Virus record (IMG/VR): IMGVR_UViG_3300046171_000068
Coordinates: 1-64,000 of that record
Strand: one strand, 5' to 3'
DNA from: a virus
Length of the DNA stretch: 64,000 nt
Below are positions 1 to 64,000 of this stretch, in pieces. How positions within the stretch are numbered: position 1 is the first letter of the stretch; every line of letters starts with the position of its first letter. The notes below the pieces were generated by a model. The model saw nothing but the letters and a program-made list of their open reading frames with translations, did not search any database and was not told where the DNA came from. The position numbers and the translations under genes are program-made.

Positions 1-78
1 GATATAATAAGTTCTAATGAAAGAGATAGACACTCAGGTGTAGCACCAACAACAAGAATTGATTACGGATTATATTAA
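1..78 (+). CDS. Head-tail adaptor protein, C-terminal fragment (unit A)
   Basis: Twenty-five codons and a stop remain of a gene cut by the window start. They match the last residues of the complete copy at 36250-36876 (ending DYGLY) with only a few changes. The stop overlaps the ATG of the next gene (TAATG), as in unit B. The product should be the ring protein that joins the portal to the tail. Confidence 0.9.
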   Translation, partial: DIISSNERDRHSGVAPTTRIDYGLY

Positions 79-268
79 TGACAGTTTGGGCAGAACAATC
101 TACAACTAGTACAAATTGGGATTTAGCAGGTACATTTTTATTTAAAACAGAAGATGATTTGTTTTTTTTGCAACAGAAGACAACAATACTTTACAGCAAG
201 AAAACATACCAGTATTAACAGTTGATGATTGGACAGTACAATCGACAACAGCAACCACATGGACATAA
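78..268 (+). CDS. Small tail-module protein, frameshifted (unit A)
   Basis: This is the counterpart of the intact 63-residue gene at 36876-37067. The start overlaps the adaptor stop and the end (TAA 266-268) abuts the tail-fibre ATG at 269. The interval is 191 bases instead of 192, because a run of eight T at 162-169 replaces the nine-base TTCTTTTTT of unit B, which breaks the frame after about 28 codons. The N-terminus (MTVWAEQSTTSTNW) and the C-terminus (WTVQSTTATTWT) each repeat a W-x-x-Q-S-T-T motif. The function is not recognised. The single homopolymer deletion is more likely a sequencing error than a real knockout. Confidence 0.7.
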
Positions 269-1900
269 ATGGCAAATAAGAAATTTTCAGAATTAACAGA
301 AGTTACCACCCCCAATAGTGCATCTATATTTGCTACAGCTTATGATGGGGATAACTTTAAAGTTACACTAACAAACATCGCTGCAAACATGCCATCTATT
401 ACTACGACTGGCACAGTTACAGCTACAACATTTGTAGGTAACGTAACAGGTAATGTTACAGGGTCAATTACAGGTAACGCAGATACAGCTACAGCTTTAG
501 CTACAGGTCGTACAATAGGTATGACAGGTGATATTACTTGGACTTCAGCATCTTTTAATGGCACAGGTAATGTAACAGGTACAGCAGCAATAGGTAGTGG
601 TGTTATTGTCAATGCCGATGTCAATGCAAGTGCTGCAATAGATGCAAGTAAAATACATGATGGCACAGTTTCTAATACAGAATTTGGATATTTAAATGGT
701 GTTTCTTCTGCAATACAAACGCAGATGAACACAAAGATTACAGCTAGTTCTACAGATACTCTAACAAACAAGACTATCAATACAGCTAGTAATACGATTA
801 CAATAGTAGAAGCAGATATATCAGACCTCGGCTCATATATCACAGCATCTTCTACAGACACACTAACTAATAAGACATTTAATGCTAATGGAACAGGCAA
901 TAGTCTTTCTAATGTCGAGGTAGCAGATTTAGCATCAGGTGTTCTTGATACAGATATATCAAGTGTATCAGGAAGTGATGATACACTAGCATCAGCAAAA
1001 GCAATTAAGACTTATGTAGATGCACAAGTTACAGCACAAGACCTAGACTTTCAGGCAGATACAGGTGGTGCATTATCTATTGACCTAGATACTGAAACAC
1101 TAACCTTTACTGGTGGTACAGGTATAGATACAAGTGGTAGTGGTAATGCAGTTACTTTTGCGATTGATTCAACTGTTGCAACTTTATCAGGCACACAAAC
1201 ACTAACCAATAAAACAATCAATAGTTCGTCAAATACAATAACGATTACAGAATCAAACATATCTGATTTAGGTTCTTACATTACTGCAAGTTCAACTAAT
1301 ACTCTAACTAATAAGTCAGGAAGTAACAGTCAATGGACTAACGATGCAGGGTTTATTACAGCTTCATCTACAGATACACTTACCAATAAATCAGGTAACA
1401 TTAGTATGTTTACTAATGATTCATCATACTTAACTGGCAACCAAACAATAACATTAAGTGGTGATGCTAGTGGTAGTGGAACAACAGCTATTACAGTTAC
1501 AGTTGCAGATGATTCGCACAACCACATCATATCTAATGTCGATGGATTACAAACAGCACTAGATGGCAAGGTAACAGAAACTGCTAGTACAGGAAGTGCC
1601 GAAATACCTGTAGGTACAACAGCACAACGAGATGGCTCACCTGCAACTGGTATGTTTAGATTTAACTCTACAACAACAGGATTCGAGGGCTACGATGGTA
1701 GTGCTTGGGGTGCGATTGGTGGAGCAGGTGGTGGTGCTACTGGAGCAGGTGGAGACGAAGTATTCCAAGAAAACGAAAGAGTAGTTACAACCAACTATAC
1801 TTTATCTACTAATAAATCAGCTATGTGCGTTGGACCATTAACGATTAATACAGGGGTTACAGTAACAATCCCATCAGGAGAGAGGTTAGTTATCTTATGA
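269..1900 (+). CDS. Repetitive tail fibre protein (unit A)
   Basis: A 543-residue Thr/Ser/Asn-rich fibre. It contains several copies of a TASSTDTLTNKT-like repeat (residues about 155-390), interspersed with SDLGSYI and DDTLASAKAIKTYVD segments typical of beta-helical or collagen-like marine phage fibres. The N-terminal ~60 residues (NKKFSELTEV) probably anchor it to the tail. The C-terminus carries a glycine-rich stretch followed by a beta segment ending PSGERLVIL. The start abuts the preceding stop, and the stop overlaps the ATG at 1897 of the next gene. The unit B copy is closely related but has two frameshifts. Its role is host recognition or fibre shaft. The exact fold is inferred. Confidence 0.85.
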   Translation: MANKKFSELTEVTTPNSASIFATAYDGDNFKVTLTNIAANMPSITTTGTVTATTFVGNVTGNVTGSITGNADTATALATGRTIGMTGDITWTSASFNGTGNVTGTAAIGSGVIVNADVNASAAIDASKIHDGTVSNTEFGYLNGVSSAIQTQMNTKITASSTDTLTNKTINTASNTITIVEADISDLGSYITASSTDTLTNKTFNANGTGNSLSNVEVADLASGVLDTDISSVSGSDDTLASAKAIKTYVDAQVTAQDLDFQADTGGALSIDLDTETLTFTGGTGIDTSGSGNAVTFAIDSTVATLSGTQTLTNKTINSSSNTITITESNISDLGSYITASSTNTLTNKSGSNSQWTNDAGFITASSTDTLTNKSGNISMFTNDSSYLTGNQTITLSGDASGSGTTAITVTVADDSHNHIISNVDGLQTALDGKVTETASTGSAEIPVGTTAQRDGSPATGMFRFNSTTTGFEGYDGSAWGAIGGAGGGATGAGGDEVFQENERVVTTNYTLSTNKSAMCVGPLTINTGVTVTIPSGERLVIL

Positions 1901-2499
1901 CAGTTAAGATTAATGCAGATACATCAGATGGATTAAAGTTTGTATCAGATACAAGTGGTGCTATAGATTTTCAATCTAATGGTTCTACAAAAATGTCAAT
2001 GGACGCTAGTGGTAATCTTACAGCAAACTCTTTTGTAGGAAGTGCATTAAAATTACTACATGTTCAAGATGAAAAAGGAACAACAACACATGGTGGTTCT
2101 GCTAGTGCAAATACAGATAATATTAGAGATTTAAACACAGTAAAAACAAATGAAATTACAGGAGCTAGTCTTTCATCTAATCAAATAACATTACCTGCTG
2201 GAACGTATTTTGTCGAAGCATTGGCAAGTGGTTTAGCAGTAGACCATCACAGAGCATTTTTATATAACGTAACTGATAGTGATATAGAAGTTTTAGGTAT
2301 GCAGATTTTCAATTCTGCTTGGAACACATTAACTAGTGGATTTTCTCCTGTTTATGGAAGATTTACTATATCAGGCACAAAAGTATTTGAACTAAGACAT
2401 AGAACACAAAGTGCAAAAGCCGATATAGGATTAGGGCATTATATGAATGATACTAGAAGTTCTATATATTCAAGTGTAATTATAAGGAAGATATCATAA
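1897..2499 (+). CDS. Receptor-binding/tail tip protein, 200 aa (unit A-specific C-terminus)
   Basis: The first ~45 residues (KINADTSDGLKF.SDTSGAIDFQSNG) match the N-terminus of the 346-residue unit B gene at 38686, a common phage motif that caps tail fibres. The remainder is unrelated to unit B. It has a compact beta-rich sequence (LPAGTYFVEALASGLAVDHHRAFLYNV ... SVIIRKIS) resembling C1q/TNF-like jelly-roll heads. Start 1897 overlaps the fibre stop by four bases (ATGA). The conserved anchor with a swapped tip fits a host-range determinant. The jelly-roll assignment is inferred from pattern only. Confidence 0.65.
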   Translation: MTVKINADTSDGLKFVSDTSGAIDFQSNGSTKMSMDASGNLTANSFVGSALKLLHVQDEKGTTTHGGSASANTDNIRDLNTVKTNEITGASLSSNQITLPAGTYFVEALASGLAVDHHRAFLYNVTDSDIEVLGMQIFNSAWNTLTSGFSPVYGRFTISGTKVFELRHRTQSAKADIGLGHYMNDTRSSIYSSVIIRKIS

Positions 2500-2765
2500 T
2501 GAAATATGCACTCATAGAAGGTAATGTAGTAAAACAAATATCATATATAGTAGAAGATGGTTATGTCGAGGTAAGTGATGACGTTTTTGCTGACATGGTA
2601 AAAAAAGATGATGGCTCATATGACTACACAGATGAAGTAAAAGCAGTAGCTCAACAAGTAATACAAGAAGAAACAGACAGACAAACAAGCAGAGCAAGTG
2701 GCAAAGCAAAGCTAAAAGAATTAGGATTAACAGATGCTCAAATTAAAGCGTTGGTAGGTGAATAA
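2499..2765 (+). CDS. Small tail-fibre chaperone-like protein, 88 aa (unit A)
   Basis: A short acidic helical protein whose C-terminus (KAKLKELGLTDAQIKALVGE) nearly repeats that of the 95-residue gene at 3900-4187. This ending is common in small proteins next to phage fibre genes, often taken as assembly chaperones. It overlaps its neighbours by one base on each side (TAATG), so it is translationally coupled. Unit B has a different small gene (57 aa) in the equivalent position. The function is inferred from length, composition and context. Confidence 0.6.
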   Translation: MKYALIEGNVVKQISYIVEDGYVEVSDDVFADMVKKDDGSYDYTDEVKAVAQQVIQEETDRQTSRASGKAKLKELGLTDAQIKALVGE

Positions 2766-3289
2766 TGGCATTAACATTACATGGTACAGAATTAGATAAT
2801 GTAGATGTTCTCGTTGATGGGAAAATTGAAGTTGATATGTTTAGACTTACTACTGACACAAGTGGTGGTACTAATGCTGATTTGACTGCAAATCTTGAAA
2901 GATGTGATACTGATGGTTTTGCTAAAATAGGAACAGGTATGACTGAATCTTCAGGTATTTTTACATTTCCACGAACAGGTGTATATGAAGTAAAAGTACA
3001 TGCAATGATAGAAACAGCAGATGGTGATGGCACAGCTGTATTGGCAACTCATGTAACTACAGATAACAGTAGTTATAATCCAAGTGCAGATGCTGTTGGT
3101 GGTGATGACCAAGGAACTAATAGTGTTCAAGTAACAGCATATTCTCAATGTTTTGTAAATGTAACAGACACATCACAAGTTAAAGTAAAATTTGTAACAT
3201 CATCTTTTGGCTCTAACTCGTATATAAGAGGAAATTCAAATAAAAATGAAACATCATTCAGTTTTATAAGATTAGGAGATAGTCAATAA
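2765..3289 (+). CDS. C1q-like tail tip protein, 174 aa (unit A)
   Basis: It begins MALTLHGTELDN, the same opening as the 377-residue unit B gene at 39738. It then carries a beta-sandwich-like domain with the pattern FPRTGVYEVKVHAMIE ... FVNVTDTSQVKVKFV ... SFSFIRLGD, characteristic of C1q/TNF-like receptor-binding heads. The SFIRLGD ending recurs in the next gene, 3289-3900, suggesting two paralogous heads in tandem. The start is coupled to the upstream stop. The fold is an inference; the paralogy is visible. Confidence 0.6.
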   Translation: MALTLHGTELDNVDVLVDGKIEVDMFRLTTDTSGGTNADLTANLERCDTDGFAKIGTGMTESSGIFTFPRTGVYEVKVHAMIETADGDGTAVLATHVTTDNSSYNPSADAVGGDDQGTNSVQVTAYSQCFVNVTDTSQVKVKFVTSSFGSNSYIRGNSNKNETSFSFIRLGDSQ

Positions 3290-3900
3290 TGGCATTAGTA
3301 ATTAAAGGTAGTACAAGTGGGCAAGTAACTATAGATGTTCCTTCTGAAGCAGGTACACGAGCAATTAATTTTCCTGCTGTATCAGGAAATGTTTTAACAG
3401 ATGGCTCGGCTCTACCTGCAATAGATGGTTCTGCATTAACAGGGCTTAGTGGTGGAATAACACAAGCAGATATATGGAGATTGACTACAAATGTAACATC
3501 AGATACAGGTGGTGTTAGTAATTTTGAAAGAGCAGATGACGGAGTAACAGGCAAAGTTGGTAGTGGTGTAAACTTTTCAAACCCTTACTTTTCATTTAAT
3601 GAAACAGGTATATATATGATTGAATCAATGGTTACTTTTGTTCCTACAGATGATAACGATAATATAAATTGGGTTACTGTTGCATACAATAGTGCAACAT
3701 CATCATCAGATACACTTACTACTGCAACAGGTGGAGACCCTATAATTTCAGCTTATTCAACATGTTTTTATGATGTAACAAGCACGACAAATAGCAAACT
3801 TTATTTTCAAGCATTATCAATAGGGTCAGGTAGCTATATACAGGGAGACACAAATGAAAATTTAACTTGTGTAAGTTTTATTAGACTTGGAGATACATAA
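3289..3900 (+). CDS. C1q-like tail tip protein, 203 aa (unit A)
   Basis: The N-terminus (IKGSTSGQVTIDVPSEAGTR) is the phage 'GSTSG-x-T-x-x-x-P' attachment motif, also present in the unit B gene 41041-41604. A short linker (GLSGG) follows. The C-terminal ~120 residues have the jelly-roll pattern FNETGIYMIESMVTF ... FYDVTSTTNSKLYF ... CVSFIRLGDT, shared with the preceding 174-residue protein. Such proteins probably assemble as trimers at the fibre end. The gene is coupled by TAATG overlaps to both neighbours. Confidence 0.6.
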   Translation: MALVIKGSTSGQVTIDVPSEAGTRAINFPAVSGNVLTDGSALPAIDGSALTGLSGGITQADIWRLTTNVTSDTGGVSNFERADDGVTGKVGSGVNFSNPYFSFNETGIYMIESMVTFVPTDDNDNINWVTVAYNSATSSSDTLTTATGGDPIISAYSTCFYDVTSTTNSKLYFQALSIGSGSYIQGDTNENLTCVSFIRLGDT

Positions 3901-4187
3901 TGGCAAAAGATTATCTACAACTATCATTAGCTTATTTTAATACAGATAAAGGTCAATGGTATAAATGGAAAAAAGATTATACTGGTAGTGAAAGAATGGC
4001 ATATGCTAACTTAGAACTTGCAAATGATTCAGCTACAATGCCAAGTGAAGCAGATGTTAATGCAAAAATACAAGAAATTAAAGACGCAGAAACACAAAAA
4101 GCAACTGATAAAACAAATGGCACAAACAAATTAAAAGCATTAGGACTAACTGATGCAGAAATTAAAGCATTAACACAAAAATATTAG
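3900..4187 (+). CDS. Small tail-fibre chaperone-like protein, 95 aa (unit A)
   Basis: A small charged protein with a Trp/Tyr-rich N-terminus (WYKWKKDYTGSERMAYANLEL) and a helical C-terminus KLKALGLTDAEIKAL matching the gene at 2499-2765. The unit B slot holds a 104-residue protein that instead resembles the Phage_tail_APC chaperone pattern. It is placed between the receptor-binding heads and the collar-domain protein. The assignment as an assembly factor rests on context. Confidence 0.6.
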   Translation: MAKDYLQLSLAYFNTDKGQWYKWKKDYTGSERMAYANLELANDSATMPSEADVNAKIQEIKDAETQKATDKTNGTNKLKALGLTDAEIKALTQKY

Positions 4188-4921: not shown

Positions 4922-6466
4922 TGGCAACATTTGTAGCACCTGCACCTAAAGGTCTAGTAAAAGATACAAACAATACTGTATTGCCACCTGAATTTTATTC
5001 AGAAGCATCTAACATAAGATTTGCAGATAATGCAGCTAAAAAAATTAAAGGACATGACCAGGTATTCGGCACACCAACAGTAGCCCCATATTTTGTTATT
5101 AACTGGGCAATCAGGCACAAATGTATATTGGTTTATGCAGGTACAGCAAAGATTTACAGACAAAGTGGTAGCTCAACACACACAGACTTTACAAGGTCAT
5201 CAGGTGGAGATTACTCAACTAACTTAACTACATAGGAAACTGGACAGGAACTATTTATAATGGTTTACCTATTCTATGTAATGGAGTAGATGACCCACAA
5301 GTATTAGCAACAACAGGTGCAAGTAATTTTAGCGATTTAACTAATTGGCCATCTAATACAACTTGCAAAACTATAAAAGCATTTGGTAACTATTTAATGG
5401 CACTAATCTTACAGAAAGTGGCACAGAACTTCCTAACAAAGTTAGATGGGGAGATGCAGCAGAAAACTTTGCATTACCTTCTTCATGGACAGCTCAGCAA
5501 CTAATGACGCAGGTTCTGTAACCATAGGTGATGAATCAGATTTTATTGTAGATGGTTTGGCTCTCAAGCAATCATTTGTTATATACAAAGAAAACTCTAC
5601 ATGGTTAGCCTAACTATATAGGGGGAAACCTTGTATTTAGTTTTCAAAAACTATTTAACGATACAGGCGTATTGACAAGAAACTGTATAGCAGAATTTGA
5701 CGGAAACCATTTTGTGGTAACGCAAGGTGATTTAATTGTACACAACGGAGTATCTAAAAAGTCTGTAGCTACTGATTTAATTAAAAGACAGCTATTTGAT
5801 GATATTAATGATGCCTACTACAACTTAACATTTTGCACACACAATGTTCAGCAATCTGAGATGTGGGTGTGTTATCCTAGTATCGGTTCACAATATTGCA
5901 ATAAAGCACTAATTTATAACTATGTTAATAACTCATTTACTTTTCGTGATTTGCCTAATATTTATCACATTGGTCCTGGAATTGTAGACCCTGGGGCAAC
6001 ATCCATAACTTGGAATACACAGACAGCTACATGGACAACTTATGATGGAATATGGGGAGAAAGAACCTATAATCCTACAGAAAGAAGTATATTGATGGCA
6101 GGTGTTGCAGATACTAAATTGTATCGTGGTGATTTTGGCAGACAGTTTGATGGCGAAAACTACATATCTACACTAGAAAGAAAAGGATTAACCTTAGATG
6201 GTAATACGAATACTGTTAAACAAGTAAGAAAACTAACACCTAAAGTAGGTGGTTCAGGTGTTGTCGTTGTATCAGTTGGAAGTTCTATGTCACCTAATGG
6301 CACATATACTTATACAGCAGGACAAAACTTTGACCCAACACTTAATAACAAAGTGGATTGTAGGTCAACAGGTAAATACATCGCAGTAAGATTTCAACAC
6401 ACAGATAACAGTCCATTTGAACTTAATGGCTATGATTTAGAGTATGAAGTTATAGGGGAAAGATAA
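4921..6466 (+). pseudogene. Tail nozzle-like protein with several frameshifts (unit A)
   Basis: This matches the intact 514-residue unit B gene (42643-44187) along its whole length, but the frame changes several times. Two compensating indels lie around 5105-5135. One base is lost near 5234 (premature TAG), further indels lie near 5400 and 5495, and one base is gained near 5611. The reading frame is open from 5672 to the end. The overall length is 1546 bases against 1545 in unit B. Residue-level similarity persists across every break, which argues for read errors in this stretch rather than decay. The protein resembles beta-propeller tail stabilisation proteins of the P22 gp10 kind; that fold is inferred. 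Confidence 0.7.
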
Positions 6467-7188
6467 TGGCACAAGCTCCTAAGTATGTACCTAATCCTGT
6501 ACCTGCTAACTCAGAAGATTTACCTAGATATATCTTTGAAGAACTTACTAAACTACAAGGGGCATTACAAGAAAACCCTATAGCATTTATAGAAGAAAAG
6601 AATGTTGCACCTAGCAGAGTAAAGCAAGGCGATATTGCTTATGCTGATGGTACTAACTGGAATCCAGGACAAGGTGAAAACCTATATTACTATGATGGTA
6701 CTGTATGGAGAGCATTTGCAGGTGGCAGTGGTGCAGGAGATTTTGGTTTCTTTTCATCAACAGTAGACCAATCACCAACATTAGCAGATACAGCTTATGG
6801 AATTACTTGGAATACTACAGGAGATAAACAAGGTATAACTGTAGATGGCACAGATACAACTAAATTAAATTTTACTCATACAGGCAAATACTATATTAGT
6901 TTTCATGCTTCACTAACAGCTGATAGTGCTAGTACAAAAACTGTATATTTTTTTCCAAAGATAAATGGAGCTACATCAGCAGCGTCTACAATTATTAGTA
7001 CACTACATGAGAATGGGCAGAAGAAAGTTGTATCAAGAAATGGAATATTTAGCATAACAGCAGGACAATATTTACAAGCAATGTGGGCATCAGATGACAC
7101 AGATGTTACTTTAAAAAATACTGCAGCTACATCATTTGCTCCATCAACACCATCTGTTACACTCAGTATTATACAAGTAAGTCAATAG
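6466..7188 (+). CDS. Tail protein with conserved N-terminus and C1q-like C-terminus, 240 aa (unit A)
   Basis: Residues 1-85 (AQAPKYVPNPVPANSEDLPRY ... DGTVWRAFAGGSGAGDF) are almost identical to the unit B protein at 44187. Residues 86-240 differ considerably yet keep the jelly-roll pattern FTHTGKYYISFHASL ... GIFSITAGQYLQAMWASDDTDV ... SIIQVSQ. A fixed anchor with a faster-evolving head suggests a tail appendage exposed to the host. It is coupled to the nozzle gene by overlapping TAATG. The receptor-binding role is inferred. Confidence 0.7.
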   Translation: MAQAPKYVPNPVPANSEDLPRYIFEELTKLQGALQENPIAFIEEKNVAPSRVKQGDIAYADGTNWNPGQGENLYYYDGTVWRAFAGGSGAGDFGFFSSTVDQSPTLADTAYGITWNTTGDKQGITVDGTDTTKLNFTHTGKYYISFHASLTADSASTKTVYFFPKINGATSAASTIISTLHENGQKKVVSRNGIFSITAGQYLQAMWASDDTDVTLKNTAATSFAPSTPSVTLSIIQVSQ

Positions 7189-7197
7189 GAGAAAGCG

Positions 7198-7632
7198 ATG
7201 ATTTATGTATCTGGTATACCATCAAGATATATTGATGATGTTTGGGAAGACTGTAAAAAATATGTAGAAATGGGTATTAATAAAGCTCAAGAAGAAATGA
7301 ATACGCATGATATTTACTTCTTTTTAAAAGATGCAGAAATGCAACTTTGGGTTGTTTTTGATGAGGAAAATGGAAAAGAAATTAAAGCTGTAGTTACTAC
7401 ACAAATTATAAACTATCCACAAAAAAAGGTCTGTCGTATTGTTACACTAGGTGGGCAAGGAATGGATGAATGGGTAGAGCAAACACTAGAAATACTGGAA
7501 GAATGGTCAATAGAACAAGACTGTGATGCTATGGAAACAGTATGCAGAAAAGGATTCGTTAAAAAATTAAAAAACTTTGGTTATGAACAAACATACACCA
7601 TAGTCGGAAAAGAACTCACAACCATACATTAG
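7198..7632 (+). CDS. GNAT-like small virion protein, 144 aa (unit A)
   Basis: A mixed alpha/beta protein with the central strand pair MQLWVVFDEENGKEIKAVVTTQI and an ending RKGFVKKLKNFGYEQTYTIVGKEL. This is the typical closing strand-helix-strand of N-acetyltransferase folds. T7 gp13-like virion proteins upstream of ejection genes in podoviruses have a similar length and position. The acetyl-CoA binding loop is not clear, so it may be structural only. SD GGAG lies 5 bases before the ATG. The unit B homologue (44919-45353) is about two-thirds identical by eye. Confidence 0.55.
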   Translation: MIYVSGIPSRYIDDVWEDCKKYVEMGINKAQEEMNTHDIYFFLKDAEMQLWVVFDEENGKEIKAVVTTQIINYPQKKVCRIVTLGGQGMDEWVEQTLEILEEWSIEQDCDAMETVCRKGFVKKLKNFGYEQTYTIVGKELTTIH

Positions 7633-7641
7633 GAGAATATT

Positions 7642-8487
7642 ATGAGTAAAGGTGGAGGGGGAGGCACAACCCAAACACAAAAATCAGAGCCATGGGCAGG
7701 TCAAGCACCTTACCTAACTAATTTATATGAACAAGCACAAAATTTATATGAACAAGGGCCGCAACAGTTCTATCCAGGCAGAACTTATGCTGAAGCTAGT
7801 CCTACAGTTTATCAAGCTGAAAATTTACAAAGACAAGCAGCATTAGCTCAAGCAGGATTAGGATATGGTTCTATTGTTCCAGGATTTCAACAAGCATTAA
7901 TGAGTCCTGCACAAAGGTTTCAAGACCCAATGCTACAAGAAACATTAGCAGCAAATCTTAGACCTATAGAAGAGAGTGGTTCAAGGTTATTACAACAAGC
8001 AAGAAGGGATGCTACAGGAAAAGGCCAATTAGGCGGTACAAGACAAGCTATTTTAGAATCAGAAGTTATAAGAGATATTACTCAGAAACAAGCCGATGTT
8101 GCATCTAAATTGTATGGAGATGTGTATGGAGATGTGTTAAAAACACAAGCTGCAACATTAGGACTTGCACCAAGTATTATGAACACTTTTGCCCTACCTG
8201 CGGCAACACTAGGACAAGTAGGCCAAGCACAAACAGCAAGAGCGCAACAGCCTATAACAGAAGCTATGCAACGATTTGCATTTGAACAGGCAGCGCCAAC
8301 TCAAGCACTACAGCAATATGGAAATATTGTAGCGGGTAATATTCTACCAGGCACAATAACAACATCAGGCCAAAGCAGCAGACCTAGTTTCTTACAAGGT
8401 GCGGCAGGCGGAGCCGCAGCAGGAGCATCAATAGGTGGTGCGCCAGGGGCTGTTATCGGTGGATTATTAGGAGGACTATTTAGATAG
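7642..8487 (+). CDS. Ejection (internal virion) protein with glycine-zipper C-terminus, 281 aa (unit A)
   Basis: Gln/Ala-rich helical protein opening with a glycine run (SKGGGGGTTQTQK). The C-terminus (AAGGAAAGASIGGAPGAVIGG) is a glycine-zipper transmembrane-type segment, as found in podovirus proteins released into the host envelope during DNA injection. The middle contains the conserved MSPAQRFQDPMLQE stretch shared with unit B. A good SD (AGGAG) precedes the start. Position directly before two small virion genes and the 1143-residue protein supports an ejection role; this is inference from context and composition. Confidence 0.65.
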   Translation: MSKGGGGGTTQTQKSEPWAGQAPYLTNLYEQAQNLYEQGPQQFYPGRTYAEASPTVYQAENLQRQAALAQAGLGYGSIVPGFQQALMSPAQRFQDPMLQETLAANLRPIEESGSRLLQQARRDATGKGQLGGTRQAILESEVIRDITQKQADVASKLYGDVYGDVLKTQAATLGLAPSIMNTFALPAATLGQVGQAQTARAQQPITEAMQRFAFEQAAPTQALQQYGNIVAGNILPGTITTSGQSSRPSFLQGAAGGAAAGASIGGAPGAVIGGLLGGLFR

Positions 8488-16209: not shown

Positions 16210-16396
16210 TCGACCAAGTCATTATACTAAAGGTATAGAGACAATCGAATACATAAGATCATGGGATATGGATTATGTTCGTGGGAACATCGTGAAATAC
16301 GTTACCCGATTCCCTTACAAAGGCACACCTATACAAGACTTAGAGAAAGCTAAGTGGTATCTCGAATATCTAATTAAACAGGAAAAAAACAAATGA
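16184..16396 (+). CDS. DUF3310 family protein, ~70 aa (unit A)
   Basis: The core INRPSHYTKGIETIEYI ... GNIVKYVTRFPYKG ... DLEKAKWYLEYLI is the DUF3310 (SaV-like) pattern widespread in phages, of unknown biochemical role. An upstream in-frame ATG at 16163 would add seven residues. The start at 16184 is chosen because the domain begins there, but the evidence is weak. It overlaps the preceding gene by 26 bases and the following ATG by four. Confidence 0.75.
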   Translation: MKKKEDLINRPSHYTKGIETIEYIRSWDMDYVRGNIVKYVTRFPYKGTPIQDLEKAKWYLEYLIKQEKNK

Positions 16397-17472
16397 CAAA
16401 CCAAATACATAACAATGGTGGTAACTACAGTAGAGTAGGTATCATACAAAGAAATGAAGATGGTAATGCTTTATGTTGCCCTCATTGTAAATCAACCCAC
16501 TTGATTAAAGCAGGTACAGATGGCTCAGAAAAACAAAGAAAGAGATGGAAGTGCAGGACTTGTAATAAGAAAACATCAAACCCTGAAGTTATAAAGAATT
16601 ATGAATTAGAAGAAGCTCAGAATCTTGATTGGTCTACAGAAGAATTAATCAATGCAAGAACAGAAGTATTCAAAAGAAAAGAAGCAAGAGAAAAGTCTGA
16701 AAAGTTTATCAACATAAAGATAAATGATAAGAAACCTATAGGATTATATATTCAAGGCGATCCTCATGTTGATGATGATGGATGTGATTGGGTATCACTT
16801 AGAAAGCACATAGATATAGTCAATGATACAGAGGGTATGTATGCCTGTTCTGTTGGTGACTTATCTAATAACTGGGCTAGACGTGGTAAGTTAGCAGGAT
16901 TATGGGCAGACCAAACAACTAATGGCGAACAACAATGGCAGTTAGTAGAATGGTTAGTCAATGCAACACCTTATATCTTTATCGTTGCAGGAAACCATGA
17001 TATGTGGGCTATGGAGGGTGATCCGATTACTTGGATGTGTAAACCTCTAAAAACTGTATACTCTAACCATAACGCAAGACTTAAAATCAAACTACCTAAA
17101 CACGAAATAAAGGTAAACTGTTCTCATAATTTCAGAGGACATTCCATGTACAATACAGCTCATGGTATTGTTAAACACGCATTGTTCAATGCAAGAGACC
17201 ACTTACTCATAGCAGGTCATACTCATGTATCAGGATATAGCCCTATCAAGGATGCTAACTCAGATAAGATTATGCACTGTGTACAAGTAGGTTCATATAA
17301 GAAGTACGACAACTTTGCTAAACAACTTAATCTTCCATGTAAGATGATGTCAGCTTGTGCTGTTGCTGTATTTAATACTGAACTCACAGAAGATCATCCA
17401 GACTTTATTAAAGTATTTTGGGAAGTACAAGAGGGTGCTGATTATCTTAATTATCTAAGAAACAAAAAATGA
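16393..17472 (+). CDS. Metallophosphoesterase with N-terminal zinc ribbon, 359 aa (unit A)
   Basis: Residues 28-60 hold a four-cysteine zinc ribbon (CPHC ... CRTC) of the kind seen at transposase or DNA-binding N-termini. Residues 115-350 carry the calcineurin-like metallophosphatase motifs in order: GDPHVD, GDLSNN, AGNHDMW and AGHTHVSG. It is likely a metal-dependent phosphoesterase or nuclease acting on nucleic acid. In unit B the same slot, between near-identical neighbours, contains a different metallophosphoesterase (54365-55393) with another N-terminal domain. Substrate unknown. Confidence 0.8.
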   Translation: MTNQIHNNGGNYSRVGIIQRNEDGNALCCPHCKSTHLIKAGTDGSEKQRKRWKCRTCNKKTSNPEVIKNYELEEAQNLDWSTEELINARTEVFKRKEAREKSEKFINIKINDKKPIGLYIQGDPHVDDDGCDWVSLRKHIDIVNDTEGMYACSVGDLSNNWARRGKLAGLWADQTTNGEQQWQLVEWLVNATPYIFIVAGNHDMWAMEGDPITWMCKPLKTVYSNHNARLKIKLPKHEIKVNCSHNFRGHSMYNTAHGIVKHALFNARDHLLIAGHTHVSGYSPIKDANSDKIMHCVQVGSYKKYDNFAKQLNLPCKMMSACAVAVFNTELTEDHPDFIKVFWEVQEGADYLNYLRNKK

Positions 17473-17780
17473 AACCAAAATTAGTAGTGATAAATTGGGA
17501 AGATGCAATCACCCCAACATCAGGGTGGACGAACATAAAAGAATTAGAAAGCACATTAGCTGACTGTATATCAATCGGATTAGTCGTTGAAGAAAACGAC
17601 AAAACTATAACACTTGTTAGTCACATCTCAGGATCTGATACGCAAGTAGATATAGATGGGAGTCTCGTATTGGATAAGTCTTGGATTAAATATAGAAAAG
17701 ACTTACCTCTACCTAAAGAGACAATTAATAAATTAAAGATATGGTTATTGGAGAACGCAGATGCCCAGAAAGATAAGTAA
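17469..17780 (+). CDS. Conserved small protein, 103 aa (unit A)
   Basis: A compact alpha/beta protein (LVVINWEDAITPTSGW ... IGLVVEENDKTITLVSHI) that follows the metallophosphoesterase by a four-base overlap and overlaps small terminase by 20 bases. The unit B copy is almost identical. Its consistent place before the small terminase in both units suggests a role linked to packaging or late control. The family is not recognised. Confidence 0.65.
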   Translation: MKPKLVVINWEDAITPTSGWTNIKELESTLADCISIGLVVEENDKTITLVSHISGSDTQVDIDGSLVLDKSWIKYRKDLPLPKETINKLKIWLLENADAQKDK

Positions 17781-18252
17781 AGAAGACGAACAAAAATTTA
17801 TAGATTATTACCTAGAGGGAGAGACAGCAGGTAATGCAACACAATCAGCTAAAGCTGGATGGAAAGATGATTCTAGACAAATGGGTTACTATCTTAAAAA
17901 CAAATACGTTGCCGAAATCAAACAAAAGAATGAAGAGCGTATAGCATCTACATCAGGACTCGCAATATCTGTATTACAAAACCTATTACATTCCGAGCAA
18001 GACAATGTCAGACTCAACACAGCAAAATTAGTTTTAGAAATGGGTGGTTTTAGTTCTCAGAATATAAATTTAAATGTAGAGAAAGGACAAAATAAAACTG
18101 ACGAGGAGCTAATAGAAGAGTTACAAGGCCTAGTTAGCAAGATTCCTGCTCTAAAACCTAAGTTAGCAGCAATTAAGGACCACACAGAAGAGGAAAAGGT
18201 TGAACAGCCTTCAGAAGCTTCTGAGGTAGACGAGAAGAGACTTACGCATTAG
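17761..18252 (+). CDS. terS: Terminase small subunit, 163 aa (unit A)
   Basis: The N-terminus (KFIDYYLEGETAGNATQSAKAGW) matches the helix-turn-helix of phage small terminases that recognise the packaging site. It is followed by a helical middle and an acidic, low-complexity tail. It is separated from the large subunit (28067) by the whole leftward and early region, about 10 kb away, which is unusual. The first ~45 residues differ from unit B while the remainder is nearly identical, so the DNA-recognition part varies. It is the last rightward gene before a convergent terminator. Confidence 0.75.
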   Translation: MPRKISKEDEQKFIDYYLEGETAGNATQSAKAGWKDDSRQMGYYLKNKYVAEIKQKNEERIASTSGLAISVLQNLLHSEQDNVRLNTAKLVLEMGGFSSQNINLNVEKGQNKTDEELIEELQGLVSKIPALKPKLAAIKDHTEEEKVEQPSEASEVDEKRLTH

Positions 18253-18293
18253 TGGGTTATAATCGTACCAGACACCTTAATTAAATTGGATTA

Positions 18294-18319
18294 CGGGCAT
18301 TCTAGAGCCTGTTTTTTTT
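18294..18319 (+). terminator. Terminator between convergent operons (unit A)
   Basis: A five-pair stem CGGGC/GCCTG (one G-T pair) with an eight-base loop is followed directly by eight T. It lies in the 73-base gap between the stop of small terminase and the stop of the leftward HNH gene. The same structure is at 56218-56243 in unit B. Confidence 0.55.
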
Positions 18320-18325
18320 CATTAA

Positions 18326-19198
18326 TTATTTTTTATTATAATTTTTACAGGCTTCGCTAAAGGTTTCTATAAATTCGTAAAATTTTACAGCTAACGACCC
18401 ATAAGAACATCCTTTTGGATGTTTTTTAGCTAACTTTATCAAATATTCTATTGCTTCCATCTTATCTTTTTTATTATCGAACTGTCTCATAAAGCAACCA
18501 AGGTCTGAAGATAAAGTATAAAGCTCAGAATCCCCAAAATATGAAACTCTATTCCTTACAACACCTCTTAAGTACCCTTTCCTTTTTTCATAATCTGTTG
18601 TTTCTGTGTGATAAATAACAGTATTTATAAACCTTTCTATAACTTCTTTTTTTTCTTCAAAAGTTTCTTTTTCAACAATTTGTTCTAAGATATTTTCTGA
18701 TGTATCTATTGATTCATATATTCTTTCTATAGAATGTTTTTCTGTTAATCTTTTTATAGTATTTAACCCGACTTTATTAATCTTTATTGTTAATCCATAT
18801 TCAGAAAATAATTTTTCCATAAATTTTTTTATCTTTGTTGGAATAAAGTTTTTAGATTTTAATTTTTTTTCTTGTTTTTCTAAATCTTTCTGTATCTTTA
18901 TTTTTTCTTCTTGTAATTTTTTTATGGTTTTCTTTTTTGTTTCTAGTATTTTTATTTCACCAGGCATTTTATCTGATTTACCTTGATTACATGTTTCGCA
19001 AGTGGCTCTTAAATTAGAGAACTCTGATTTGCCTCCATGTTTTACAGGAATTATATGGTCGATTACCAGCTTAACATCAGGGGCCTTAGCTCCGCAATCA
19101 CAACAAGTAAAGTTATCTCTTACTAAAACGTCATGCCTTAACCCAGGCCTAATGTATCTTGGATTACTTTTATTCATCTCCAATCTTAGATAAAGCAC
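18326..19198 (-). CDS. HNH endonuclease with long helical tail, 290 aa (unit A)
   Basis: Residues 32-75 form a complete HNH domain: CCDCG, then IDHIIPVKHGG, then NLRATCETCNQGKS, with the histidines and zinc-binding cysteines in place. A lysine-rich coiled coil (85-120) and a conserved C-terminal helical domain follow. It starts at GTG 19198, overlapping the upstream gene by 29 bases; an internal ATG at 19177 is the alternative but has no usable SD spacing. It occurs at the same place in both units, so it is a resident gene rather than a recent homing insertion. It may act in DNA processing during replication or packaging. Confidence 0.8.
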   Translation of the reverse strand: MLYLRLEMNKSNPRYIRPGLRHDVLVRDNFTCCDCGAKAPDVKLVIDHIIPVKHGGKSEFSNLRATCETCNQGKSDKMPGEIKILETKKKTIKKLQEEKIKIQKDLEKQEKKLKSKNFIPTKIKKFMEKLFSEYGLTIKINKVGLNTIKRLTEKHSIERIYESIDTSENILEQIVEKETFEEKKEVIERFINTVIYHTETTDYEKRKGYLRGVVRNRVSYFGDSELYTLSSDLGCFMRQFDNKKDKMEAIEYLIKLAKKHPKGCSYGSLAVKFYEFIETFSEACKNYNKK

Positions 19199-19712
19199 TA
19201 TTCTCTATATCCTTTATCTTTTCTAAAACTTTCATATATTGTTTTTTAAATTCCATATAACCTTTCTTATCATATCCCATAATTTCATATCGATTATTAT
19301 CATCATATATAAATTGTCCAGTACCTTGGCAATGTTCACACTTCACAATCTTATCACCACTAGTAACCGAACCTCTGCCTAAACAAAAAGGACACACATT
19401 ATCCATAACTTCAGAGATGGCAAGATTAACAAATGCACGCACCAATAACTTATCACTAGATACTAGTTTATCTTTTTTATCCTTAATAAATATATCAGCA
19501 CAATCTGTAAATATATCGTCAAAGAACATTGCTCTTGCGTAATTGTTATCTGTGTACTTTGCTATAAGAAAATCATATTCTTCTGTGGTCAATCCCCTAC
19601 TCCCTAAAAACGCAGCTATGTCCTGTGGGGTAATAGCATCGTGGTTCGCAGAAGATGATACCTCATAATTCATTGATTTGGCAGTTAAAAGTGTTAATAA
19701 TTCAACTTTCAT
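19170..19712 (-). CDS. DnaJ-type zinc-ribbon protein, 180 aa (unit A)
   Basis: Cysteine pairs CPFCLGRGSV and CEHCQGTGQF at about residues 107-134 form a DnaJ-like zinc domain. This arrangement also occurs in lambdoid antitermination Q-type proteins. The start at 19712 is chosen because AGGAGAG lies a few bases upstream; longer in-frame starts would overlap the previous gene by up to 100 bases. It lies within the leftward operon. A regulator role is possible but not shown. Confidence 0.65.
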   Translation of the reverse strand: MKVELLTLLTAKSMNYEVSSSANHDAITPQDIAAFLGSRGLTTEEYDFLIAKYTDNNYARAMFFDDIFTDCADIFIKDKKDKLVSSDKLLVRAFVNLAISEVMDNVCPFCLGRGSVTSGDKIVKCEHCQGTGQFIYDDNNRYEIMGYDKKGYMEFKKQYMKVLEKIKDIENSALSKIGDE

Positions 19713-20001
19713 TCTCTCTCTCCTGTAATCTTTTCTTTTCTGCTGCGGCACGAGATTTAAGGTGTTGTAAATATTTTTCTCCATTCTTTCGATATCTCTC
19801 AATCATATACACTTGCATGGCGTAAGAAACGCCCCAAGGAAAACTACTATCACTTTCTTGATGTGGTTTAGGTAAACTGTCTTCTATCTTATATAGTATA
19901 CTTCTTTCTTCGTTAGTAAATCTAGTAGATGATTTAACAAGAGCGTGCCAATAAATTCTTTCATTACTAATTCCATTCTTAGCCCAATACTTTTTACTCA
20001 T
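19702..20001 (-). CDS. Conserved phage protein, 99 aa (unit A)
   Basis: No family is recognised. The sequence is basic, with a C-terminal charged helix (YRKNGEKYLQHLKSRAAAEKK). Start codon ATG with GGA nearby, overlapping the upstream stop by eight bases. The unit B copy differs at only about ten positions. Confidence 0.6.
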   Translation of the reverse strand: MSKKYWAKNGISNERIYWHALVKSSTRFTNEERSILYKIEDSLPKPHQESDSSFPWGVSYAMQVYMIERYRKNGEKYLQHLKSRAAAEKKRLQERENES

Positions 20002-47816: not shown

Positions 47817-50800
47817 TTGGCAGTAATAGATGTAAACTTAAACGAGTTTAAAAAAGATAAGAAAGGCGTTGATGTTGATTTAACAGATATATTAAATCAA
47901 GTGTCTCCAAGTAATTCATCATTGCTTAACGATAAAATAGAATCTCCTATTAGGTCAAAAAATGATGAAGCTAGTTTAGGTTTAATGGCTGGTGCTATAG
48001 GAACTGAAATAGCTATATCTGAAGCTGGAAGATTTGCTGGAGCTGCAGCTGCAGGTCCATTAGGTTTTGTTATAGGCGGATTAACATCAGGTGCTTATGG
48101 TTCTTTGGTAGCACAAAGAATGATAGACCCTGATAATATATCTTATGGAAGAGTATTAGCTGATGCATTTATCAACTTAATTCCAGGCTCAAAGGCCGCA
48201 AAAGGAACACAAGCGGTAGCTGATGCTGTAGCTAGACAAGGTGCTGTTGGTGCTGGTATAGCTGCTGGTGGAGAAACAATACAGACAGCTTATGATGAAA
48301 AGAGATTACCAACAATAGATGAACTAACTGATGCTGGTATGACTGGTGCAGCTTTAGGTACTGGATTAGGACTTACTGGTGTAATGTTCAATAGAGCATA
48401 TTCTAAAATAGCTGGCTTACCTGAAAGAGATGTAACAAAGCTTATTGAAGAAAATGACCCTGACGTAAAAGGATTATATAACAATCTTTCAGAAGCAACC
48501 AAAAAAAACAGAACAGAGTTTCAACAAGACCTTGATAATAAATTATTAGATATAAGCGAACAGTTTAGTGACGCAAGTGTTAGAACAAAAATTATACAAG
48601 ATGAAGTTGCTGGCGGTCAATATACAAGCGAAAAAGGAATACTAAAAGTAAAAGGAAATGATGAAGCTGATTATTATTTAAATAAAAGATTAGCTACAGC
48701 TAAAATAGATGCACAAACAAAAAAAATTGAAACAGAGGATGCATTAAGCGTTAAGTTTTTAGCGGAACAATCTATACATACAAAAAGAACTCCACAAGAA
48801 TTATCAGAAAGTATCAATGATTACCTACATGCAAAACATGCATTATCTTACAATAAAAATCTAGGTTTAGATGGAGCTGCTGGTAAGACTAAAGATGGTC
48901 TTACTATGACTAACGCACAAGCTAAAGCAATTATTGATAAATTTGAAAAAGCTAATTTACATAATGACTTAAAATTTTCTATAGATTTATTAAAAAATCA
49001 ATCTAAAAGGATATTGGATATTGCTGTTGATGGCGGACTAATATCGACAAAACAAGCTAATGACTGGAGAAAGGTATATCCTGACTATGTTCCTATGTAT
49101 AGGATATTAGATGAGACTAATGTTCAAAAATACTTTAATCCTAGATTTGGAGGATTGAGTTCAGGTGAGGTTAAATCAACAGGATTCTTAAAAGAAAAAG
49201 GAGATGTAGATTTAGAAGTAAGTTCTATTAGACAAAATGTTTATGACAGTTTAACAGATGTTATTAGAAGGGCTGAAACAAACAAAGCAAACTTAGCATT
49301 TAAAAGATTACTAGACCAAAACAGAGATGTAGCTGACCAAATTGTTGCAGTTAATAAAGCAACAAAAGACCCATACTTTAAAGCAGACAATCTTGCAGAT
49401 GATATTAAAAAAGATGATACAGCTTTTAGTATTTTTGAAAATGGTGAACAATTTATTGTTAAATTTAAAGATGCTAAATTAGCTAAAGCTTTTAAAGGTA
49501 CGCCTAAAAAAGAAATGAATTCTGTTGTAGAATCTATATTTAATTTATCAAGTAATATCAACAGATGGTTCGGGCAAGCATACACCAAACTTAACCCTGA
49601 CTTTATCATTCCTAACTTATTTAGAGATAGAACAGAATCTGCTGTAAATAATATGAGAAAACTTGGAGGTAAAGGAGGTAGAACTCTAGACCCTGTAAGA
49701 ACCGCACAAGATTGGAATATTGTTAGAAAAAAACTTTTTGGCGGTAAAGCTGATAACGCAGACGAACAAAGAATATTTGATGAATATGATGAGTTTGTAA
49801 AAGAAGGCGGAAGCACAGGCGGTCTAGCAGCAACAACAATAAAAGAAGCAGACAAAGAAATAGCAAATTTATCTAAAAGATTAGACTCTCCAGTAAGAAG
49901 AACTGCTGATTCATTTAGCAAGTTCATGGATAAAGTTAATGGAATATTTGAAGACTCTACTAGATTTGGAACTTATAGATTAGCTATAGAAGCTGGCCTA
50001 AGTCCTAAACGTGCAGCATTAGCAGCAAGAGATTCATCATTTGACCCATTACTAGGTGGTACAGATGTAGGAACATTAAGAGCATTATACTTGTTTGCTA
50101 ACCCAGCATTACAAGGTATGAAACAATTTACACGCTCAATGTATAATAGCCCTAAAGTAAGATATGGAGTTTTGTCAGGTTTATTTGCAACTACATATTT
50201 ACTAGATAATTGGAATTCTTTACAGGACCCTGAGTGGGAAGAAAAACTAAGAACAACATCGGGTAGTAATTGGCTTAAAAACAAAAACCTAGTTATCGTA
50301 ACAGGTAAAGAAGAAGATGGTTCTTTAGATTATGTAACTATACCTATAGGTTATCCTTTAATCCCATTTAAATACATGGCTGATGTGGCTCAGAAAATGA
50401 GTTTCTTACCTTCTTATGGGCAAGGAATTACTGCAAGTGCAGAAGAAATAGCAAATGAAGCAAGGTCTGAATTAGTAGACGCATACAACCCTATAGGTGC
50501 TAGTTTATGGCCAACACCACTAAGGTCAGTTATTGAAGTTATGCAAAACAAAGATGGTTTAGGTAGAACTATTAGACCTGAATGGTTAGAAGCTAAGAAT
50601 ATGTCTGCGGTAGAAAAAGTTTATCCATGGACAATGCAAACGCAAGGCGGTGAATTAGCTTTTGCTCTTGCAGAAACATTAGAAGGAATGGGCTGGGAAA
50701 CATCACCTGAAAACATTATTCATTACGCTAAGACTGTTACTGGTGGTCCTGGAGCAACATTAAGTAAATTAATCAATATAGCTTCTAAAGTTAAAAACGG

Positions 50801-51299
50801 TAAAGAAATAGATAAAAGAGAAATTCCTATCGTTAGAAGATTCTTTGGTGATTCATATCAAGAAGCATTTGAACTAAGAGGTGGTCCAGCTACCAAGATA
50901 GAAGAGTTTGACTTTGAAGATGAAACATTAAAAGCTAGAGATTCTAGAATAGCATCACAAATATATTCAGAGTATAAAGATAATCCTGAAAGAAGAGGAG
51001 ATATATTAACAGAAGCTTTAGCTGATGGAAGAATAAATACTTCTATAGCTAAAAAACTTATTAGAAAAGAAAAAGAAAGTAGACTTGGTATTACTTCCGC
51101 AGACAGAAGAGCAAAACAACTATCACTACCGAAACGAGTAGAATACCTGATAAGTGAAATGGAAAAAATGGATATACCTACATTACAAAACTATATTATT
51201 GAGCAAAAGAAAAAAGGCATAATAACTAAAGATGTAATTAAATTATTAAAGCAAGATAAAAACTTTCAAAATATAAGACTAGGAAGGCCAGTAGAATGA
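47817..51299 (+). CDS. Giant internal virion protein with LPD38-like region, 1160 aa (unit B)
   Basis: TTG start with ACAGGAG six bases upstream (GTG in unit A). Same architecture: Gly/Ala-rich membrane-like region (about 60-170), long helices, NPDFIIPNLFRDR (about 592), ARDSSFDPLLGG (about 735), LFANPALQG (about 760). It is only about half identical to unit A by eye, while the gene directly behind it is the same protein in both units. Confidence 0.7.
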   Translation: MAVIDVNLNEFKKDKKGVDVDLTDILNQVSPSNSSLLNDKIESPIRSKNDEASLGLMAGAIGTEIAISEAGRFAGAAAAGPLGFVIGGLTSGAYGSLVAQRMIDPDNISYGRVLADAFINLIPGSKAAKGTQAVADAVARQGAVGAGIAAGGETIQTAYDEKRLPTIDELTDAGMTGAALGTGLGLTGVMFNRAYSKIAGLPERDVTKLIEENDPDVKGLYNNLSEATKKNRTEFQQDLDNKLLDISEQFSDASVRTKIIQDEVAGGQYTSEKGILKVKGNDEADYYLNKRLATAKIDAQTKKIETEDALSVKFLAEQSIHTKRTPQELSESINDYLHAKHALSYNKNLGLDGAAGKTKDGLTMTNAQAKAIIDKFEKANLHNDLKFSIDLLKNQSKRILDIAVDGGLISTKQANDWRKVYPDYVPMYRILDETNVQKYFNPRFGGLSSGEVKSTGFLKEKGDVDLEVSSIRQNVYDSLTDVIRRAETNKANLAFKRLLDQNRDVADQIVAVNKATKDPYFKADNLADDIKKDDTAFSIFENGEQFIVKFKDAKLAKAFKGTPKKEMNSVVESIFNLSSNINRWFGQAYTKLNPDFIIPNLFRDRTESAVNNMRKLGGKGGRTLDPVRTAQDWNIVRKKLFGGKADNADEQRIFDEYDEFVKEGGSTGGLAATTIKEADKEIANLSKRLDSPVRRTADSFSKFMDKVNGIFEDSTRFGTYRLAIEAGLSPKRAALAARDSSFDPLLGGTDVGTLRALYLFANPALQGMKQFTRSMYNSPKVRYGVLSGLFATTYLLDNWNSLQDPEWEEKLRTTSGSNWLKNKNLVIVTGKEEDGSLDYVTIPIGYPLIPFKYMADVAQKMSFLPSYGQGITASAEEIANEARSELVDAYNPIGASLWPTPLRSVIEVMQNKDGLGRTIRPEWLEAKNMSAVEKVYPWTMQTQGGELAFALAETLEGMGWETSPENIIHYAKTVTGGPGATLSKLINIASKVKNGKEIDKREIPIVRRFFGDSYQEAFELRGGPATKIEEFDFEDETLKARDSRIASQIYSEYKDNPERRGDILTEALADGRINTSIAKKLIRKEKESRLGITSADRRAKQLSLPKRVEYLISEMEKMDIPTLQNYIIEQKKKGIITKDVIKLLKQDKNFQNIRLGRPVE

Positions 51300-54182: not shown

Positions 54183-54381
54183 TCGGCCAAGTCATTATAC
54201 TAAAGGTATAGAGACAATCGAATACATCAGGTCCTGGGATATGGATTATGTTCGTGGGAACATCGTGAAATACGTTACCCGATTCCCTTACAAAGGCACA
54301 CCTATACAAGACTTAGAGAAAGCTAAGTGGTATCTCGAATATTTAATTACACAGGAAAAAAAACATGCCAAGCACAAATAG
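54157..54381 (+). CDS. DUF3310 family protein, ~74 aa (unit B)
   Basis: Identical to the unit A protein except for its end (QEKKHAKHK). Similarity to unit A stops at about 54361, where the following metallophosphoesterase gene is different. It overlaps that gene by 17 bases. Confidence 0.75.
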   Translation: MKKKEDLINRPSHYTKGIETIEYIRSWDMDYVRGNIVKYVTRFPYKGTPIQDLEKAKWYLEYLITQEKKHAKHK

Positions 54382-55393
54382 GTCTAGCATATCGCTAGCC
54401 ACAGCACATGACATCGTAAGAGCCTGGAACCTGCCAGGAATGAAAAAACAAAAAGACGTTTTTGAATATCTAGGATTATCTACAGATTCAGGAACAATGT
54501 CTTTTTACAGACAGCAAGCAGAAGAATTAACTGGCGTAAGATTAGCTCCGCATTCAGATGGAAACTGTAATGAGATTATTAGAATAGAAAGGGCAAACTT
54601 ACCACCACTAACTAATCATGTAAAAATAACTAACACTCCATATTGTATGTTGGTATTTAGTGATGCACATTTTGAAGGACACGAAACAGTATCTTTTAAA
54701 ATTATGTGCGAGGTGTTAAAAGATTTACTTAAAACAAGACAACTTAAATTAGTTGTAGCTAATGGTGATATTATGGATTTATCTATTCTATCTTCGTTTG
54801 CAAAGTTTCACACAGAGATAAGGCCAAAAGAAAGAACAGTACAAAAAGAGATTTATGATTCTCAAGCTCAAATAAATAAAATACAAAAGATTATTGATAA
54901 AGCTAAATATCCTGTAAAACAAATAGCAACCTTCGGTAATCATGAAACTAGATTATCTAAAGTAGCTATGTCTTGGGGTAGAGCATTTGAAGATTTAGAA
55001 GCATTTAAAATACAAAGTTTATTTCCTGACTGGGAATGGGCAATGTCACACCTAGTTGATGATACTGTAATGATTAAACACAGAATGAGAGGTGGCGTAC
55101 ATACCGCTTATCAAAACGCTATGCGTGGTGGAATACATATTGTAACAGGCCACACACATCAATTAAATGCTAGAACATTTAATACTTATTCAACTACATC
55201 AATGGCAATACAAACAGGACATTTGTCAGAAGCATATCATCCATACTTAGAAGACAATGTAGCTAATGATTGGAATAACGGATTTGCTGTTATTACTGTA
55301 GACCCAAAAGAAAAGACAGTTCATCCTGAATTAGTACAGGTTAGTAACTATCACAGGTCAGCATTCTTTAGAGGTAAAAAATATACAGTATGA
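54365..55393 (+). CDS. Metallophosphoesterase with N-terminal helical domain, 342 aa (unit B)
   Basis: Residues 10-55 (LATAHDIVRAWNLPGMKKQK, then DVFEYLGLS and a SFYRQQAEEL helix) look like a helix-turn-helix or small helical DNA-binding domain. Residues 90-290 hold the metallophosphatase motifs FSDAHF, NGDIMD, GNHETR (Glu for the usual Asp) and TGHTHQ. It is not alignable by eye with the zinc-ribbon enzyme of unit A outside these motifs. It occupies the same slot, so one enzyme was exchanged for another of the same class. Confidence 0.8.
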   Translation: MPSTNRSSISLATAHDIVRAWNLPGMKKQKDVFEYLGLSTDSGTMSFYRQQAEELTGVRLAPHSDGNCNEIIRIERANLPPLTNHVKITNTPYCMLVFSDAHFEGHETVSFKIMCEVLKDLLKTRQLKLVVANGDIMDLSILSSFAKFHTEIRPKERTVQKEIYDSQAQINKIQKIIDKAKYPVKQIATFGNHETRLSKVAMSWGRAFEDLEAFKIQSLFPDWEWAMSHLVDDTVMIKHRMRGGVHTAYQNAMRGGIHIVTGHTHQLNARTFNTYSTTSMAIQTGHLSEAYHPYLEDNVANDWNNGFAVITVDPKEKTVHPELVQVSNYHRSAFFRGKKYTV

Positions 55394-56249: not shown

Positions 56250-57122
56250 TTATTTTTTATTATAATTTTTACAGGCTTCGCTAAAGGTTTCTATAAATTC
56301 GTAAAATTTTACACCTAACGACCCATAAGAACATCCTTTTGGATGTTTTTTAGCTAACTTTATCAAACATTCTATTGCTTCCATCTTATCTCTTTTATTA
56401 TCAAACTGTCTCATAAAGCAACCAAGGTCTGAAGACAAGGCATAAAGCTCAGAATCCCCAAAATATGAAACTCTATTTCTTACAACACCTCTTAAGTACC
56501 CTTTCCTTTTTTCATAATCTGTTGTTTCTGTGTGATAAATAACAGTATTTATAAATCTTTCTATAACTTCTTTTTTTTCTTCAAAAGTTTCTTTTTCAAC
56601 AATTTGTTCTAAGATATTTTCTGATGTATCTATTGATTCATATATTCTTTCTATAGAATGTTTTTCTGTTAATCTTTTTATAGTATTTAACCCGACTTTA
56701 TTAATCTTTATTGTTAATCCATATTCAGAAAATAATTTTTCCATAAATTTTTTTATCTTTGTTGGAATAAAATTTTTAGATTTTAATTTTTTTTCTTGTT
56801 TTTCTAAATCTTTCTGTATCTTTAGTTTTTCTTCTTGTAATTTTTTTATGGTTTTCTTTTTTGTTTCTAGTATTTTTATTTCACCAGGCATCTTATCTGA
56901 TTTACCTTGATTACATGTTTCGCAAGTGGCTCTTAAATTAGAGAATTCTGATTTGCCTCCATGTTTTACAGGAATTATATGGTCGATTACCAGCTTAACA
57001 TCAGGGGCTTTAGCTCCGCAATCACAACAAGTAAAGTTATCTCTTACTAAAACGTCATGCCTTAACCCAGGCCTAATGTATCTTGGATTACTTTTATTCA
57101 TCTCCAATCTTAGATAAAGCAC
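56250..57122 (-). CDS. HNH endonuclease with long helical tail, 290 aa (unit B)
   Basis: About seven residue changes from unit A; the HNH motifs (IDHIIPVKHGG, CETCNQGKS) are unchanged. GTG start at 57122, overlapping the zinc-ribbon gene. Confidence 0.8.
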   Translation of the reverse strand: MLYLRLEMNKSNPRYIRPGLRHDVLVRDNFTCCDCGAKAPDVKLVIDHIIPVKHGGKSEFSNLRATCETCNQGKSDKMPGEIKILETKKKTIKKLQEEKLKIQKDLEKQEKKLKSKNFIPTKIKKFMEKLFSEYGLTIKINKVGLNTIKRLTEKHSIERIYESIDTSENILEQIVEKETFEEKKEVIERFINTVIYHTETTDYEKRKGYLRGVVRNRVSYFGDSELYALSSDLGCFMRQFDNKRDKMEAIECLIKLAKKHPKGCSYGSLGVKFYEFIETFSEACKNYNKK

Positions 57123-63544: not shown

Positions 63545-63585
63545 TAGCAACCATATTAATTATGTTTTGTATTTATGAATCATAA
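63529..63585 (+). CDS. Tiny membrane peptide, 18 aa (unit B)
   Basis: MFEILIATILIMFCIYES: hydrophobic, after AAGGGGGCAAGCAT, overlapping the 49-residue gene. Positional equivalent of the 20-residue unit A peptide; a strong terminator follows. Confidence 0.45.
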   Translation: MFEILIATILIMFCIYES

Positions 63586-63598
63586 TTAGCAACTAACT

Positions 63599-63624
63599 AG
63601 CCCGCTGAAATATGCGGGCTTTTT
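63599..63624 (+). terminator. Strong intrinsic terminator (unit B)
   Basis: AGCCCGC/GCGGGCT stem with loop TGAAATAT, then TTTTT. Same stem as 26034-26059, different loop. Confidence 0.85.
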
Positions 63625-63851
63625 AGTGCCTATCTATATTAGAATCTACTAATATTCTTATACAAGTAAAATAAAAATCTGATGGCGGGGAAAAGTCCCG
63701 AATGCCTTATTCTATATACATATATACTACTATAGTAAGCAGAAATAGGCTTTTTTGAGGGTTTTACAAATCACACGCACACAATACTAGATAAGGGATA
63801 GACGTTCCTAATAGCACACTCACACGCCTTTTTTAGCCAATTCAGTACATT
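63621..63851. other. Conserved non-coding block (unit B)
   Basis: Nearly the same 230 bases as 26056-26286, with no gene. Candidate origin, packaging or regulatory region. Confidence 0.5.
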
Positions 63852-64000
63852 AACACATACTAATATTCCCCTCCCTTCCTACCATTTTATTTATTTTTTT
63901 TTTTTTGCTGGTTAAGGAATATTAACGCCCGCTAATATTAGTTTATTAGAATATTCAGATATACTTATATACAAAAATATATGTTGACATAAGCTTATCC
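63852..64000 (+). promoter_or_regulatory. Gene-free region with repeats and the start of a strong promoter (unit B)
   Basis: About 55 variable bases with ACATACTAATATTCC and a long T run, then a block equal to 26490-26583 with CTAATATTAG. The -35 box TTGACA is at 63984-63989; the -10 box lies beyond the window. Confidence 0.5.

Follow-up and report, generated by a model that had tools for sequence, protein, structure and literature searches.

Layout of the record and its internal repeat

The IMG/VR record is linear and 64,460 bases long, and the window analysed here is its first 64,000 bases. Along the plus strand it is laid out as an arm of one strain (A), a single head module (terminase, portal, scaffold, capsid) and an arm of a second strain (B), about 1.75 laps of a genome. 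The arm of strain A (1-29079, +), delimited by exact matches to contigs of sample 3300017741, carries the tail, ejection and replication/recombination genes and the first two thirds of the terminase gene. The terminase large subunit gene (28067-29491, +; Pfam Terminase_6N and Terminase_6C, PHROG 2) is the sole copy in the record, and so are the scaffold and major capsid protein genes (33169-35185, +), with scaffold at 33169-34215 (PHROG 3927) and capsid at 34244-35185 (PHROG 1328). Between terminase and scaffold lies the portal gene (29861-31914, +), which is split by a one-base deletion at 31359-31360 into two ORFs, both assigned to PHROG 1216. The arm of strain B, homologous to 1-27918 by self-alignment, occupies 36799-64000 (+) and runs on to 64460 in the full record. 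Each arm has genes of its own version, such as an exonuclease-type gene in A (16393-17472, +; PHROG 7339, DNA repair exonuclease) and a metallophosphoesterase gene in B (54365-55393, +; Pfam Metallophos, PHROG 221). Tail fibre genes were also identified with PHROGs and Pfam, and these phages encode Sak and YqaJ-type recombination proteins. No tRNA was found in the window, and a DNA-level search of the phage collection gave no match.

Does the record really hold one genome twice? The original prediction described two diverged copies joined head to tail, with base 1 aligned to 36799 and the gene order repeated over at least 27 kb. Self-comparison of the window agrees with the alignment and the extent: base 1 corresponds to 36799 (1-2016 against 36799-38805, 88.7% identical), and a collinear chain covers about 27.7 kb of gene order at an offset of 36.8-38.1 kb, ending in the window with 26488-26582 against 63906-64000 (94.7%). 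Identity between A and B along the chain is 66-97%, i.e. the units are 3-34% different, with the lowest values (66-75%) in the tail and large virion genes, the highest (96.5%) at 17469-22125, and a longest exact run of 246 bases. Genes have been replaced at several loci, including about 2.0-4.2 kb and 16.4-17.5 kb, so the swapped genes and the divergence were also rightly noted. Since the units are non-identical, they are not the identical repeated units of an ordinary replication concatemer. The repeat is thus real, but its second copy is not complete. The end of the record (64343-64460) aligns to 27801-27918. The last base of unit B, 64460, thus corresponds to 27918, some 150 bases short of where terminase begins (28067), and unit B lacks only the terminase-portal-scaffold-capsid stretch. 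Both contig ends flank the head module, which is the most conserved module and the only one present in single copy.

One-base indels at 31359-31360 (portal), 25581, 5231, 5426 and 166 interrupt genes whose counterparts in relatives are whole. Consensus errors in the record are probable, because the portal homopolymer is A6 in the window and A7 in two relatives, one of the A contigs described below (L182) and the B-like genome G001. A long-read origin was also considered from these indels and is suggestive only, as 38506-43654 has none against a contig of the B haplotype (L292) while 17846-29079 has two.

Strains A and B as separate genomes

The window equals contigs of sample 3300017741 without mismatch at 209-1617, 1951-4011 and 5999-8004, and is near-exact to them at 17846-29079, where the exceptions are a patch at 23351-23832, three SNPs and two homopolymer indels. 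The patch diverges within a long stretch that apart from it is the same as in a contig of another sample, and is a natural recombination mosaic. Three contigs of that sample, L182 (17,759 bases), L122 (6,105) and L183 (13,347), have exact 123-base end-to-start overlaps and together form a closed ring of 36,842 bases, which comes from another sample than the window. The ring has no internal duplication, and no off-diagonal self-match longer than 150 bases was found in it. Its own head module, 2-3% different from that of the window, leads back into the tail genes of A, and L122 and a further contig, L123, each pass from a head module into the first bases of A. Elsewhere, in parts of 4-17 kb that include the tail region, the ring is a diverged mosaic relative to the window, at about 76-90%.

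The B haplotype occurs in a third sample: 38506-43654 matches L292 (3300047358) at 99.98%, with one difference in 5,149 bases and no indel. This contig is too short for closure, and single-unit closure on the B side is that of a relative, G001 (3300046170_000115), not of B. G001 has 37,155 bases and aligns once round the window as a single unit, its ends abutting exactly at window positions 21068|21069 and 58992|58993. It is 94-98% identical to B over most of B and 97% identical over the head, but its large virion gene is A-like and the HNH gene of 18.3-19.2 kb is absent. The component genomes are thus found as separate single units, as the A ring, the B-like G001 and the B haplotype in L292. 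The original prediction held that a joined molecule would be contradicted if each unit closed alone at 37-38 kb. For unit A this is what was observed, the A haplotype forming the 36,842-base ring in sample 3300017741; for unit B it was observed in the B-like G001 at 37,155 bases, and closure of B itself lies beyond the reach of L292.

The passage from A to B

Where does A pass to B? The original prediction put the junction at 36799. This position merely reflects where the contig starts, and it is not the junction: the exact match to A reaches 29079, and the sequence does not become clearly B-specific until about 38.0-38.8 kb. The interval of passage, 29080-38800 (+), consists largely of the conserved head module. 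In 500-base steps between 29.0 and 36.5 kb, the similarity of the window to the A ring and to G001 is 91.8-99.6% in each case, which leaves no finer placement for the switch. By these alignments, the switch is bounded by 29079 on one side and by about 38.8 kb on the other, and 29079 is a lower bound only, because the end of the exact match there may be a natural change of haplotype. The switch thus falls in a region of high identity between strains, the A-exact match ending in the terminase gene.

The last 62 bases of the record equal 27857-27918, which suggested a join at 27.9 kb by way of a shared terminal repeat. This was rejected as the A/B junction, as contig L182 (also G008) is collinear through 27.9 kb at nearly 100%.

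Origin of the record

Why, then, is the record so long? It has 64,460 bases against 36.4-40.7 kb in nine full-length relatives. We consider it very probable that it is a strain-chimeric metagenome contig that goes about 1.75 times round a circular strain graph. An assembler passing round such a graph was the third explanation in the original prediction and is the best supported, though the laps are about 1.75 and not two. There would be at least two related marine podoviruses, A and B, with single-copy genomes of about 37 kb, each assembling as a circle. In the sample of the window, the assembler's walk would begin on A and, by way of the replication genes, reach the head module. This module is about 97-99% alike between the strains, and within it or just after it the walk would cross to B, continue round the arm of B and halt just short of re-entering the head module. 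The product would be an A-arm, one head module and a B-arm, and no molecule of 64 kb would be necessary. Such an assembly would account for why the record is so long, why it has one head module, where both contig ends fall and why A and B occur separately. It is favoured because the A haplotype closes singly as a ring, the B-like G001 does likewise and B is found in another sample, and because only the most conserved module is single and the contig ends flank that module. An imperfect consensus fits as well, because one-base indels break conserved genes such as portal. Some points count against it. The A ring is from another sample, with a head module 2-3% different and parts of the tail region only about 76-90% like the A arm, and the closed genome on the B side is that of a relative, G001, with a different large virion gene. 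When the contig ends were tested for exact k-mer overlap, the start had its first mismatch at base 10 and the end matched over 62 bases, so that, save for this end match, neither end repeats the k-mers of the other's strain exactly. Furthermore, with Sak/YqaJ-type proteins and mosaic patches such as 23351-23832, a real crossover between A and B could occur.

Such a crossover would underlie a mixed concatemer or cointegrate, formed by head-module recombination between two co-infecting relatives as they replicated, and sampled from the cell ahead of packaging. The switch sits in a conserved module, the easiest place for homologous recombination, and the genes for Sak-type annealing and YqaJ-type recombinase proteins and the mosaic haplotypes point the same way. 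However, nothing observed requires this event or sets it apart from a switch in assembly, A and B-like units close singly elsewhere, a molecule of 64 kb exceeds the one-genome size of close relatives (about 37 kb), and a rare recombinant intermediate would need to be abundant enough to assemble; we regard it as improbable. A stable element of about 64-75 kb that carries two diverged gene sets, be it a multimeric or duplicated-genome phage or something plasmid-like, is far less credible still. Divergence of 3-34% and swapped genes would fit a long-lived duplication, but the ring of the A haplotype holds one set only, B occurs in a different sample, and no close relative listed is long enough for two sets, the longest among these contigs having at most 40.7 kb; the full-length relatives carry one set. 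The long-lived multimer that the original prediction had also entertained is thus not supported. It is just as hard to believe in two prophages integrated in tandem, which would account for the head-to-tail order, given that no tRNA was found, that both arms are phage genes throughout the aligned chain, that no capsid relative in cellular genomes exceeds 59% identity, and that the original prediction saw no integrase.

Related genomes and recurrence of strain-mixed closure

The nearest isolates are single-unit genomes, Pelagibacter phage HTVC106P (MN698244; 36,945 bases) and Methylophilales phage Venkman EXVC282S (MT375522; 38,624 bases). HTVC106P has the order terminase, portal, scaffold, capsid and tail as in the window, with 51% identity in the capsid and 45% in the portal, but it is distant and single-copy, and its matches at E<=1e-6 comprise only about a dozen ORFs of the window. 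Venkman shares the order of the head module and has annotated Sak-like and YqaJ genes; it differs in being single-copy, and its proteins are distant from those of the window. The phages of the window resemble both in having a collinear terminase, portal, scaffold and capsid module in a genome of 35-39 kb, with the unit length taken from G001 and the A ring.

Is the window alone in mixing strains? Nine full-length relatives (G001, G002, G013-G016, G019-G021) were compared with themselves, and in four of them the sequence continues for 67-404 bases beyond a full lap, into a copy that is not identical; this is a biased rate, as all nine are classed as linear by IMG/VR, which selects non-identical ends. 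The overruns are 404 bases at 93.8% in G015 (L278-L279), 268 bases at 86.2% in G002 (L104-L105), 121 bases at 99.2% in G020 (L285-L286) and 67 bases at 97.0% in G019 (L282-L284). These four are called linear despite a full lap because their end overlaps are only 86-99% identical. Judged from these overlaps, strain-mixed closure is recurrent in the group, usually over short distances, and the window is its extreme case.

As biology, the record is most likely of no consequence, each phage being an ordinary genome of 37 kb. As a matter of data quality it is instructive. Among IMG/VR contigs, the authors of CheckV reported 290 that hold repeated genomes and exceed twice the expected length, and they considered these to be probable assembly artefacts (PMC8116208). 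They also stated that chimeras of closely related viruses are not yet detected and that the tool could be adapted to find them (PMC8116208). Concatemer contigs of small phages have likewise been removed and attributed to misassembly at terminal repeats (PMC10747093). Like the CheckV contigs, the window is longer than expected and holds a genome more than once, but its copies are diverged strains (66-97%), so a filter on k-mer copies would likely miss it. Joins of diverged strains probably slip past repeat filters based on identical k-mers, and such contigs can make genomes in virus catalogues look too large and too rich in paralogues. If the mixed concatemer were the true reading, the record would capture recombination between strains in progress in the ocean.

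Further features

The 62-base block at 27857-27918 (+), upstream of the terminase gene, is GC-rich amid an AT-rich genome and identical in A and B, and three other contigs share a 30-base core of it exactly. The block could be a packaging site or a terminus. For the 1160-aa virion protein of B (47817-51299), the IMG/VR search gave no close relative, whereas one was found for its counterpart in A. An HNH endonuclease gene lies in both arms, at 18326-19198 in A and 56250-57122 in B, and the corresponding site in G001, from which it is missing, has about 6 bases. This gene is likely a mobile insertion of the homing-endonuclease type.
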